The notes under the pieces: model-generated
Seen by the model: the letters and a program-made list of their open reading frames with translations, nothing else
Told to the model about the DNA's origin: nothing
Database searches by the model: none
Position numbers and translations under genes: made by a program
In this document: positions 14,505 to 61,183 of the stretch, piece after piece
Layout of the letters: each line of letters begins with the position of its first letter
How positions within the stretch are numbered: the stretch's first letter is position 1
Assembly (NCBI RefSeq): GCF_900107485.1
Contig: NZ_FNQE01000019.1
Coordinates: 1 to 64,000, forward strand
Direction: 5' to 3'
DNA length: 64,000 nucleotides
From: Proteiniborus ethanoligenes
GTDB taxonomy: Bacteria > Bacillota > Clostridia > Tissierellales > Proteiniboraceae

Positions 14505-14528
14505 ATGATACATGAAAGTAAAAACTAA
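14505..14528 (+). CDS. Seven-codon leader ORF before the glmS ribozyme
   Basis: An ATG at 14505 with a strong AAAGGTGGTG ribosome binding site opens the mini-ORF MIHESKN, ending in TAA at 14526-14528. The stop is only 7 bases from the predicted ribozyme cleavage site. The strong ribosome binding site has no other start codon to serve, so translation of this mini-ORF is plausible; no function is known. Confidence 0.45.
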   Translation: MIHESKN

Positions 14529-14534
14529 ATATTA

Positions 14535-14670
14535 AGCGCCAGAGCTCAATATTTTGAGTTGACGAGGACATGGTTTATCGAAAATTCGGCGGATGCCATG
14601 CGGTGCAGCTACCATCGTTAGTAGTCCTACAAATACCACAAGTGATTGTGGAGACAAAAGGATTAAGTAG
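14535..14670 (+). ncRNA. glmS ribozyme (glucosamine-6-phosphate-activated self-cleaving riboswitch)
   Basis: The leader of glmS contains the diagnostic core: AGCGCCAGAGCT at the 5' end, TTGACGAGGACATGG, TTTATCGAAAATTCGGCGG, ATGCCATGCGGTGCAGCT, and a 3' part with the CCACAAGTGATTGTGG stem and GGAGACAAAAGG. Cleavage is expected between 14535 and 14536, just 5' of GCGCC. In this class glucosamine-6-phosphate acts as cofactor, and cleavage leads to decay of the glmS mRNA, giving feedback control. Two more hairpins (AAACTCATT/AATGGGTTT at 14675-14696 and ATGCTC/GAGCAT at 14704-14722) lie between the ribozyme and the glmS start. The 3' boundary is approximate. Confidence 0.97.
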
Positions 14671-14823
14671 ATATAAACTCATTAAAAAATGGGTTTGTTT
14701 GCCATGCTCAAAAACAGAGCATAAATGTATATTAATACTTTAATGATTTAACTTAAATGTAAGTGGATTTAAATGCTGATAGTGATAATAATATAGATAA
14801 AAATATTGAAGAAGGTGATATAT

Positions 14824-58741: not shown

Positions 58742-59599
58742 ATGTTTGTAAACAAGAACGTGGCAAATTTTAAATCAGTGTGCATTATAATTATAGTGCT
58801 TATATTATTAGTATTTTTCTATTTACAAAACAATTGGATTTCAAAGACTAGACATAAGATTAGTTTTCAAAAATTACCTAAAAATTATCATGGACTAAAA
58901 ATTGTTCATATATCAGATTTACATAACAAGTCATTTGGTAAAGAACAGGAGTATTTAATAAGTCAAATAAACAAAGAAAATCCTAATATTATAGTAATAA
59001 CGGGTGACTTAATAGATAGTAGACGATATAATGAATATATAGCTATGAAATTTATTGAAGAAGCAGTTAAAATTGCCCCAGTATATTATGTAACTGGTAA
59101 TCATGAAATACGCTCAGGTAGTTTTGAAGATTTAGAAAAAAAACTTGTTGATACAGGTGTGAAAGTCTTAAGAAATAGTTGGGAAAAGCTGGATATAAAT
59201 GGGGAGAGTATTTTCATAGTAGGTATTGATGATCCTCACTCCCTGGAAAAAAACAAAAGCTCTAGATTAACAAAAGAGTACTTAGATATAGCTACAAAAG
59301 GACTAGATGCTCAGGGCTTTAAAATACTTTTAGCACATAGGCCTGAAAAGATACACATATATGCTGAGGATGGCTTTGATTTAGTATTTAGTGGTCATGC
59401 TCATGGTGGACAGTTTAGATTTCCTTTTCTAGGGGGATTTGTAGTGCCTAATCAAGGCTTTTTCCCCAAGTACACATCTGGTAAACACATAGTTGACCAT
59501 ACTATGATTATAATAAGCAGAGGACTAGGAAACAGTATAATACCCCAGCGTGTTTTTAACAGACCAGAAATTGTAATTACAGAATTGTTAGCAGAGTAA
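58742..59599 (+). CDS. Membrane-anchored metallophosphoesterase (YkuE-like)
   Basis: The 285-residue protein has an N-terminal membrane helix (about 10-28) and a calcineurin-like domain with all metal blocks: HISDLHN, VITGDLID, YVTGNHE, LLAHRPE and FSGHAHGGQ. This is the YkuE/LpxH-related group of membrane phosphoesterases. Its substrate may be a lipid-linked phosphate, but this is not shown. AAGGAG precedes the ATG. It ends 94 bases before the mgtE leader ORF. Confidence 0.9.
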   Translation: MFVNKNVANFKSVCIIIIVLILLVFFYLQNNWISKTRHKISFQKLPKNYHGLKIVHISDLHNKSFGKEQEYLISQINKENPNIIVITGDLIDSRRYNEYIAMKFIEEAVKIAPVYYVTGNHEIRSGSFEDLEKKLVDTGVKVLRNSWEKLDINGESIFIVGIDDPHSLEKNKSSRLTKEYLDIATKGLDAQGFKILLAHRPEKIHIYAEDGFDLVFSGHAHGGQFRFPFLGGFVVPNQGFFPKYTSGKHIVDHTMIIISRGLGNSIIPQRVFNRPEIVITELLAE

Positions 59600-59693
59600 T
59601 TCATTTAATATGAGCTAGTGACTTAAGCAAGATTATCCTTTAAACAGTAAGGGTTTTATAGCAGTTTAATATAACGAAGAATGAGGTGATAAA

Positions 59694-59837
59694 ATGGATG
59701 CAGACCCGCATGGGAATAGTTTTTCAAGAAAAATTAATAATAATGTAGAGGAAGGCACCTTTTTATCACTGATTATGTGCTCCTCTACTATAGAAGGAGG
59801 AGAAATAAAATATGGAAAAGGTTTTAGAACTAATTAA
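59694..59837 (+). CDS. Leader ORF of mgtE (MgtL-like, acidic/proline start)
   Basis: A 47-codon frame begins at ATG 59694 behind a good GAGGTGAT site and starts MDADPHG; it ends at 59837, 26 bases inside mgtE, in another frame. It runs through the hairpin at 59745-59788 and the mgtE ribosome binding site. In enteric bacteria the mgtA leader peptide MgtL starts with an acidic/proline run (EPDP) that makes ribosomes fall off when Mg2+ is low. The DADP start ahead of a magnesium transporter gene is a striking parallel, though the proteins are unrelated. Translation and function are unproven. Confidence 0.55.
   Translation: MDADPHGNSFSRKINNNVEEGTFLSLIMCSSTIEGGEIKYGKGFRTN
59745..59802 (+). promoter_or_regulatory. 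Alternative hairpins around the mgtE Shine-Dalgarno site
   Basis: Fold 1: GTAGAGGA (59745-59752) pairs with TCCTCTAC (59781-59788), extended by GCAC/GTGC, leaving the mgtE site AAGGAGGAG free. Fold 2: CTCCTC (59780-59785) pairs with GAGGAG (59797-59802), hiding it. The two folds use the same CTCCTC bases and exclude each other. Ribosome position on the leader ORF could choose between them. Confidence 0.55.
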
Positions 59838-61143
59838 GGAAAACAAGCTTATTCAAGCAAGAAATCAATTAAAAGATATGAATGTAGTAGATATAGCACA
59901 GCTATTAGACGAAACAAGTCAGGAAAAAATGCTTATAATCTTCCGAATTCTACCTAAGGATATTTCAGCAGACGTGTTTTCTTACTTATCATCAGAGCAG
60001 CAAAGGTATATTATCGAATCCATAACTGACAAAGAGATAAAAACTATCATTGACGAATTATTCTTTGATGATACCATAGACTTCTTAGAGGAGCTGCCAG
60101 CAAATGTTGTAAAAAAAGTAATTAAGCATACTGATGAAAATACAAGAGCATTGATAAATCAGTTTTTGAAGTATCCTGAAAATTCAGCTGGTAGTATTAT
60201 GACCATAGAATATGTAGATTTGAAAAAGGAAATGACAGTAAAGGCTGCCCTAGAGCATATTAAGAAGACTGCCATAGATAAGGAAACTATAAACACCTGT
60301 TATGTTATGGATAAAAACAGAAGACTAGAAGGAGTACTTTCAATAAGGCAGTTAATTTTAAATGATGAAGATACTATTATAAAAGATATTATGGATACAA
60401 ATGTAATATATGTTCATACACTTGAAGACCAAGAGTATGTAGCTGATACTTTTAGAAAATACGACTTTATTTCTATGCCAGTAGTAGATAACGAAAATAG
60501 ACTTGTAGGGATAATCACTATTGATGATATAGTAGACATTATTGAGCAGGAGAACACGGAAGACTTTCAAAAGATGGCTGCTATGGCTCCATCAGAAGAG
60601 GAATATCTAAAGACAAATGTATTCTCTTTAGCTAAGCACAGAGTAGTATGGCTTTTAGTTCTTATGATTTCTGCTACATTCACTGGAAATATTATAAGAA
60701 AATTTGATGAAGTACTTCAGTCAGTTGTAGTTTTAGCCGCATTCATTCCTATGCTTATGGATACAGGAGGAAACGCTGGTTCACAATCCTCCACATTAAT
60801 CATACGTGGTTTAGCTTTAGGAGAAATAGAAACAAAGGATGTTTTTAAAGTTATATGGAAAGAGCTTAGAGTCAGTCTTGTAGTAGGTATAGTCCTAGCC
60901 CTTGTAAACTTTTTACGAATTTATTATCTTGAAAAAACAGATATATATATATCCTTAGCAATATGTATTAGCTTGTTTTTTACTGTTATATTAGCCAAAG
61001 TTGTAGGAGGAATATTGCCAATAGTTGCAAAAAAAGTTAAGCTAGACCCTGCTATTATGGCTAGTCCACTAATAACAACTATAGTTGATGCCTTAGCACT
61101 TTTAATATACTTTTCAGCTGCTACAACATTACTAGGACTTTAA
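59812..61143 (+). CDS. mgtE: Magnesium transporter MgtE
   Basis: MgtE is a Mg2+-gated Mg2+ channel. The 443-residue protein has the N-terminal superhelical MgtE_N domain (about 1-130), a pair of CBS domains (about 130-260; MTIEYVDL, MPVVDNENRLVGIITIDDIVDIIEQE) and five membrane helices with the conserved pore-region blocks RVVWLLVLMISATFTG, MDTGGNAGSQSSTLIIRGLALG and DPAIMASPLITTIVDALALLIYF. The ATG at 59812 has AAGGAGGAG ahead of it. A 47-codon leader ORF and competing hairpins precede it. No M-box riboswitch was recognised. Confidence 0.95.
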   Translation: MEKVLELIKENKLIQARNQLKDMNVVDIAQLLDETSQEKMLIIFRILPKDISADVFSYLSSEQQRYIIESITDKEIKTIIDELFFDDTIDFLEELPANVVKKVIKHTDENTRALINQFLKYPENSAGSIMTIEYVDLKKEMTVKAALEHIKKTAIDKETINTCYVMDKNRRLEGVLSIRQLILNDEDTIIKDIMDTNVIYVHTLEDQEYVADTFRKYDFISMPVVDNENRLVGIITIDDIVDIIEQENTEDFQKMAAMAPSEEEYLKTNVFSLAKHRVVWLLVLMISATFTGNIIRKFDEVLQSVVVLAAFIPMLMDTGGNAGSQSSTLIIRGLALGEIETKDVFKVIWKELRVSLVVGIVLALVNFLRIYYLEKTDIYISLAICISLFFTVILAKVVGGILPIVAKKVKLDPAIMASPLITTIVDALALLIYFSAATTLLGL

Positions 61144-61183
61144 AAAATGAGACTCCCTTTATCTGTAAGGGAGTCTCATTTTT
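61144..61183 (+). terminator. Terminator after mgtE
   Basis: AATGAGACTCCCTT pairs perfectly with AAGGGAGTCTCATT (61146-61159 with 61167-61180), followed by TTT and flanked by A-rich sequence upstream. Confidence 0.92.

Follow-up and report, generated by a model that had tools for sequence, protein, structure and literature searches.

The mgtE gene of Proteiniborus ethanoligenes is preceded by a short open reading frame (ORF) with an acidic/proline start and by three helices, one of which covers the mgtE Shine-Dalgarno (SD) site. Comparison with relatives in Bacillota reveals that the peptide start, the open frame and all three helices are under selection, and that the leader is associated with Mg2+ transporters and M-boxes. 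We consider it probable that the leader is a translational attenuator, in which a leader peptide senses low Mg2+ via the ribosome.

The leader and its helices in Proteiniborus ethanoligenes

The window, i.e., the whole stretch of DNA that was analyzed, comprises 64,000 nt of contig NZ_FNQE01000019.1, and the leader, its helices and the neighboring genes are all on the + strand. The leader appears in the ORF list at 59694–59837 (47 codons, MDADPHGNSF...). Its SD site, GAGGTGA at 59683–59689, is identified by sequence, pairing and conservation, and supplies segment 1, the 5′ strand of helix P1. The leader alignment gives the start as M-D-x-[G/D/E]-P, represented in the window by MDADPHG (59694–59714), which is the proposed ribosome-faltering element. 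The mgtE gene (59812–61143), with the SD site AGGAGG at 59795–59800, encodes a Mg2+ transporter/channel with Pfam domains MgtE_N, CBS and MgtE, and the best solved relative of its product is PDB 2YVX (E 9e-89). A first-pass annotation had described the 47-codon ORF with its ribosome-binding site (RBS) and MDADPHG start, a 12-bp hairpin, the motif CTCCTC (59780–59785) and the overlap of the ORF into mgtE, all of which are found where it placed them. It had seen no M-box, and none (RF00380, gathering score) is present in the window or in the whole 3.16-Mb genome. Rfam matches within the leader (E up to 10) were at chance level only, and the leader had no match in plasmid records. The sole Rfam match within the window is a glmS ribozyme/riboswitch at 14524–14676 (+; RF00234, 110 bits).

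A metallophosphoesterase-like gene (58742–59599), recognized by its GDLID, GNHE and GHAHGG motifs only, lies 5′ of the leader and adjoins leader and mgtE in two sister species of the same genus as well (L003 and L004). The leader and mgtE are probably co-transcribed with this gene, because in both sister species the leader RBS begins ~10 nt past the stop codon of the upstream gene, which probably places the leader within an operon. Directly 3′ of mgtE is a strong hairpin followed by a T run (61147–61182, TGAGACTCCCTT...AAGGGAGTCTCA), likely the terminator of the transcript.

Helix P1 (1:2; 59681–59776) is supported by folding, covariation and a partner-swap test. Segment 1, made up of the leader RBS and start codon, here base-pairs with an anti-RBS in the loop of P2; in the window, 59685–59694 pairs with 59761–59770, and 59681–59684 with 59773–59776. 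The anti-RBS lies ~45–75 nt 3′ of the leader start, and the duplex has a mean energy of −20 kcal/mol (z about −4). Helix P2 (2:3; 59745–59788), with the same three kinds of support, pairs GTAGAGGA (59745–59752) with TCCTCTAC (59781–59788), and GCAC (59755–59758) with GTGC (59777–59780). Helix P3 (3:4; 59780–59802), supported by folding and the swap test, joins the 3′ arm of P2 to the mgtE SD site by pairing CTCCTCT (59780–59786) with GGAGGAG (59796–59802), and thereby excludes P2. P2 and P3 are the two mutually exclusive hairpins of the first-pass annotation, and both are conserved in relatives; P1, which is the strongest helix and ties the leader RBS and start codon to 59761–59776, was absent from that account. 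P2 was also considered as an intrinsic terminator and dismissed, there being no U run 3′ of it.

The region folds better than shuffled sequence (z −2.8, single sequence). Two things kept RNAalifold from giving a useful structure on a MAFFT alignment of the leaders (A1): some nucleotides belong to both P1 and P2, and P2 was out of register in the divergent rows. Pairs were instead counted explicitly on a cleaner alignment (A2), alongside energy-based swap tests. In A2, P1 and P2 were 93% paired, with double-sided changes at 10 of 18 pairs. These values were reached by 0–1 of 500 shuffles, and slid controls were 34–61% paired. In the swap test (5000 permutations), the segments of each leader were paired with the partner from another leader and the pairing energies compared. 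Own partners paired more strongly than swapped ones for P1 (−19.6 vs. −14.0 kcal/mol), P2 (−11.7 vs. −8.2) and P3 (−8.9 vs. −7.6), and none of the 5000 permutations matched the observed value for any helix. P1 was partner-specific in 18 distant leaders too. P3 is the weakest helix: its median rank in the swap test was only 0.37, its form differs between lineages, and in one large group it depends on G-U pairs.

Distribution, peptide conservation and link to Mg2+ transport

As an unbiased set we collected 30 MgtE loci, the window included, by protein search alone and then read the upstream DNA. A short ORF with a strong RBS and the start M-[D/E]-x-x-P is present in 27 of the 30 (window counted), beginning ~95–140 nt (about 110 nt) ahead of mgtE. 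The MDADPHG of the window corresponds to MDSDPYG in two species of the same genus. The first-pass annotation had pointed to related Clostridia as the place to look for a conserved acidic/proline ORF start and covarying hairpins, and there both were found.

A DNA-pattern scan of ~85,000 species genomes returned 85 matches to the leader. Thirty of these are followed by mgtE and come from Tissierellia, other Clostridia and one Haloplasmataceae bin; the remainder, including those outside Bacillota, were set aside as chance, no non-Bacillota match preceding mgtE. The set was widened with two covariance models, R1 (built without the window) and R2. At the level of the order they matched leaders in 59 of 249 genomes, at that of the class in 40 of 391 and at that of the phylum in 14 of 398; mgtE lies downstream in all 59 loci read from the order and class searches. 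R1 scores the window leader at 28.1 bits (E 7e-4 in 369 kb), and this smaller search recovers the window genome, which R1 does not do under strict whole-genome filters. Two covariance matches on the opposite strand (L018, L021) were left out as reflections of the near-palindromic P1. The leader and hairpins of the window are thus more than chance, because the fold beats shuffled sequence, the ORF start and helices are conserved and covary, and a model finds the window.

Several loci depart from the simple arrangement. Tandem mgtE copies each have their own leader match in two genomes (L197 in G226, L198 in G417), and a second mgtE copy with an interrupted frame (G008:C1:2174469-2175893) still has an intact leader (113 bits). 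Two leaders are degenerate and have no Pro5 (L005, MESDDLHR; L013, MDIDRSSDYG); their genomes (G051 and G042) carry an M-box elsewhere.

Peptide statistics were computed on 79 distinct leader starts. For many of these the search itself, by DNA pattern or covariance model, favored such starts, and the DNA-pattern leaders are biased to MDSGP, so that the protein-found set is the safer evidence. Residue 2 is acidic in all 79 (D in 77, E in two). Residue 5 is P in 77 and residue 7 in 58; residue 3 is S in 64 and residue 6 is L in 63. Residue 4 is G in 56 and D or E in 13, the window among the latter. The consensus is MDSGPLP, compared to MDADPHG in the window, and other variants include MDPDP and MDPEP. 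Third codon positions vary across the leader starts, and pN/pS is 0.33 for codons 2–7 vs. 1.14 for codons 8–15. These comparisons indicate that codons 2–7 are kept as peptide, not just as DNA, and that codons 8–15 are under no amino-acid constraint. The frame is open through the anti-RBS (segment 2) in 78 of 79 leaders, compared to 17 ± 4 expected from shuffles; this is what an attenuator requires, namely that a ribosome be able to traverse segment 2. Length is ~24–54 aa, and the end of the ORF varies from −48 to +59 relative to the mgtE start, with about half of the ORFs stopping 8–20 nt before mgtE. Ending inside mgtE is therefore true of the window but is not a conserved trait (in L003 and L004 the ORF stops within the hairpin loop), and the overlap in the window is incidental because the ORF end is not fixed.

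The leader is also found ahead of a second type of transporter gene. A Mg2+ transporter of the NRAMP family has been described (PMC8806188). In another class, a leader (MDSGPY...) precedes genes for a PRC/MgtE_N/CBS protein and an NRAMP protein. The best solved relative of the latter is 7QIA (E 6e-109), with a lead of about 80 orders of magnitude in E-value, which we take to be the transporter of that description. Operons with a PRC/MgtE_N/CBS gene and an NRAMP-related gene follow the leader at L190, L191, L192, L193 and L200–L204, with an M-box upstream of the leader at L190, L191, L200 and L201. The PRC/MgtE_N/CBS protein is possibly a regulatory subunit of the NRAMP transporter.

A scan of 60 leader stretches found an M-box upstream of the leader in 35, NRAMP-type operons included (two stretches are repeat extracts of one locus each). 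Conversely, 28 of 40 checked genomes of the window's order, that of the window included, have no M-box match. In three loci (L010, L105, L159) an M-box is followed by the leader within ~55–70 nt, at L010 with a terminator-like hairpin and T run between them; this order suggests transcriptional and translational control by Mg2+ in series. Genomic context thus ties the leader to Mg2+ transport, through MgtE nearly always and NRAMP-type operons otherwise, often with an M-box upstream.

Proposed mechanism and alternatives

Folding was computed for the free RNA and with a ribosome placed on it. The free window RNA forms P1 and P3, with an accessibility of the mgtE SD site of 0.18. With a ribosome held on codons 1–11, P2 forms and accessibility rises to 0.33–0.48; with the ribosome on segment 2, P3 forms and the value returns to 0.18. 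In two species of the same genus, accessibility rises from 0.17 to 0.68 and 0.60. The arrangement in which stems 1:2 and 3:4 exclude stem 2:3, segment 4 being the transporter SD site, is thus reproduced by computation (covariation, partner swaps and constrained folds), with P3 weak in some groups.

We infer that the leader is translated, that the ribosome falters at low Mg2+ and that MgtE increases as a result. In the ribosome-free leader, P1 and P3 would hide both the leader RBS and the mgtE SD site, as computed. At low Mg2+, by analogy to MgtL, for which this has been shown, and to MgtQ, for which it has been proposed, a ribosome on M-D-A-D-P would be destabilized or slowed at the first codons. 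Such a ribosome would block pairing of segment 1 while staying out of segment 2, so that P2 could form; P3 would then be impossible, the mgtE SD site exposed and MgtE made. At high Mg2+, the ribosome would traverse segment 2 and melt P2, P3 would close over the mgtE SD site, and MgtE would be switched off. Several points count against this explanation: P3 is weak, the DNA-pattern leaders are a biased sample, the computed gain in accessibility in the window is moderate, the commonest form of the start, MDSGPLP, contains a single acidic residue where MgtL has more, and the sequence does not fix the sign of full leader translation, which might mean repression or coupling. Strict termination-reinitiation coupling was downgraded given the range of ORF ends.

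The same stems could also serve a signal other than Mg2+ acting on the ribosome. If RNA alone were the sensor, high Mg2+ would stabilize P1, perhaps with a pseudoknot to P2, and shut the leader RBS; at low Mg2+, translation of the leader would open mgtE by coupling, and the peptide would need only an open frame. P1 is indeed long, and no helix is better conserved; the anti-RBS occupies the loop of P2, leaving 0–2 nt between (the topology of a pseudoknot), and the stops 8–20 nt before mgtE in about half of the leaders would suit coupling. Yet this leaves the restriction of amino-acid selection to codons 2–7 unexplained, and the spread of the stops means that the coupling geometry is not conserved, so that we regard an RNA-only sensor as unlikely. 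We give slightly less credence to a same-stem attenuator that responds to the supply of proline or the activity of EF-P (charged tRNA-Pro, as for mgtP). Control through proline codons is known for enteric mgtL and mgtP (PMC8092293, PMC11552253), and here Pro5 is as conserved as Asp2 and Pro7 is common. However, the consensus has no PP run, many leaders (MDADPHG of the window among them) have a single proline in the start, the equal conservation of Asp2 is less well explained, and the linkage is to the M-box and two types of Mg2+ transporter.

Other readings dispense with a switch in cis. A small protein acting in trans on MgtE or metal homeostasis has a parallel in the conserved small ORF under M-box control in mycobacteria (PMC12810186), but a conserved stretch confined to codons 2–7, followed by unconstrained codons and variable length, makes such a protein very improbable here. 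That a functionless ORF and hairpins arose by chance might be argued from the modest z-score of the single-sequence fold, and is refuted by the conservation and by all comparative tests; we attach almost no weight to it. We return to a ribosome-based attenuator as the best explanation.

Comparison with known systems

MgtL, MgtQ and CorL all come from enterobacteria, and the present leader shows no evident sequence relation to them. To our knowledge, ribosome-based sensing of Mg2+ by leader peptides is known only from enterobacteria. We found no Gram-positive counterpart in open-access full text, in which the variant appears undescribed, a description in a subscription journal being possible. 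On balance, we favor the view that M-D-x-x-P leaders form an unnamed, Bacillota-wide class of ribosome-based Mg2+ sensors that arose independently of MgtL and MgtQ, controls MgtE as well as unrelated NRAMP-related transporters, often acts in series with an M-box, and is free of one in many Tissierellales. If so, acidic/proline nascent chains would be a general cellular means of reading Mg2+ (MDPDP, MDPEP and MDADP here vs. MEPDP), a translational layer would lie on top of M-box-controlled genes, and the leader would be a likely regulator of mgtE where the M-box is missing. The roughly one hundred natural variants would also offer a set for defining short peptides that destabilize Gram-positive ribosomes.

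The nearest logic appears to be the translational attenuation of MgtQ. In Salmonella mgtQ-mgtB, mutants show that stems 1:2 and 3:4 hide the mgtB RBS and 2:3 frees it, and Asp2 and Glu5 of MgtQ promote mgtB translation (PMC8092293). Like MgtQ, the present leader is a short ORF with its own strong SD site and Asp2, directly ahead of a Mg2+ transporter gene inside an operon, with the same exclusive stems and a presumed control of translation. The leader does not belong to the MgtQ family proper, an 8-aa ORF between mgtC and mgtB: it has 47 codons ahead of mgtE (~24–54 aa in relatives), its segment 1, which in MgtQ lies in the ORF, consists of the leader RBS together with the start codon, what follows it is mgtE or an NRAMP-type operon, the hosts are Bacillota, and no sequence relation was seen. 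MgtL shares the acidic/proline start (M-E-P-D-P in E. coli vs. M-D-A-D-P here and M-D-P-D-P or M-D-P-E-P in relatives) and the position in the leader of a Mg2+ importer gene, and ribosomes leave E. coli MgtL at EPDP when Mg2+ is low (PMC8934632, PMC11282234). It differs in acting through Rho-dependent transcription termination, in its structures and in its gene, mgtA, which encodes a P-type ATPase (PMC8934632, PMC11282234, PMC11552253); preceding mgtE, the present leader lies outside the MgtL family proper. The earlier interpretation of a Gram-positive counterpart of MgtL is thus partly supported by these comparisons: the start and hairpins are conserved and linked to Mg2+ transport, but the logic seems closer to MgtQ, and P1 had been missed.

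Three further systems share some traits. The M-box (RF00380) is likewise a Mg2+-linked 5′ leader of mgtE in Bacillota and stands in tandem upstream in many relatives, but it is an aptamer that binds Mg2+ directly, and is missing from the window genome. The mgtE motif, a riboswitch candidate of Thioalkalivibrio, is a structured RNA that includes the mgtE SD site, but is confined to one proteobacterial genus, with no leader ORF reported (PMC11109978). The closest to a Gram-positive counterpart in the literature searched is uORF2/Rv1805A of Mycobacterium tuberculosis, a small, conserved ORF with an M-box on one side and a Mg2+-stress operon on the other. Its N-terminus is conserved, with proline at position 7; it is reported as mycobacteria-specific and of unknown function, and precedes another gene (PMC12810186). 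The present leaders suggest a fresh reading of this M-box-controlled mycobacterial uORF.
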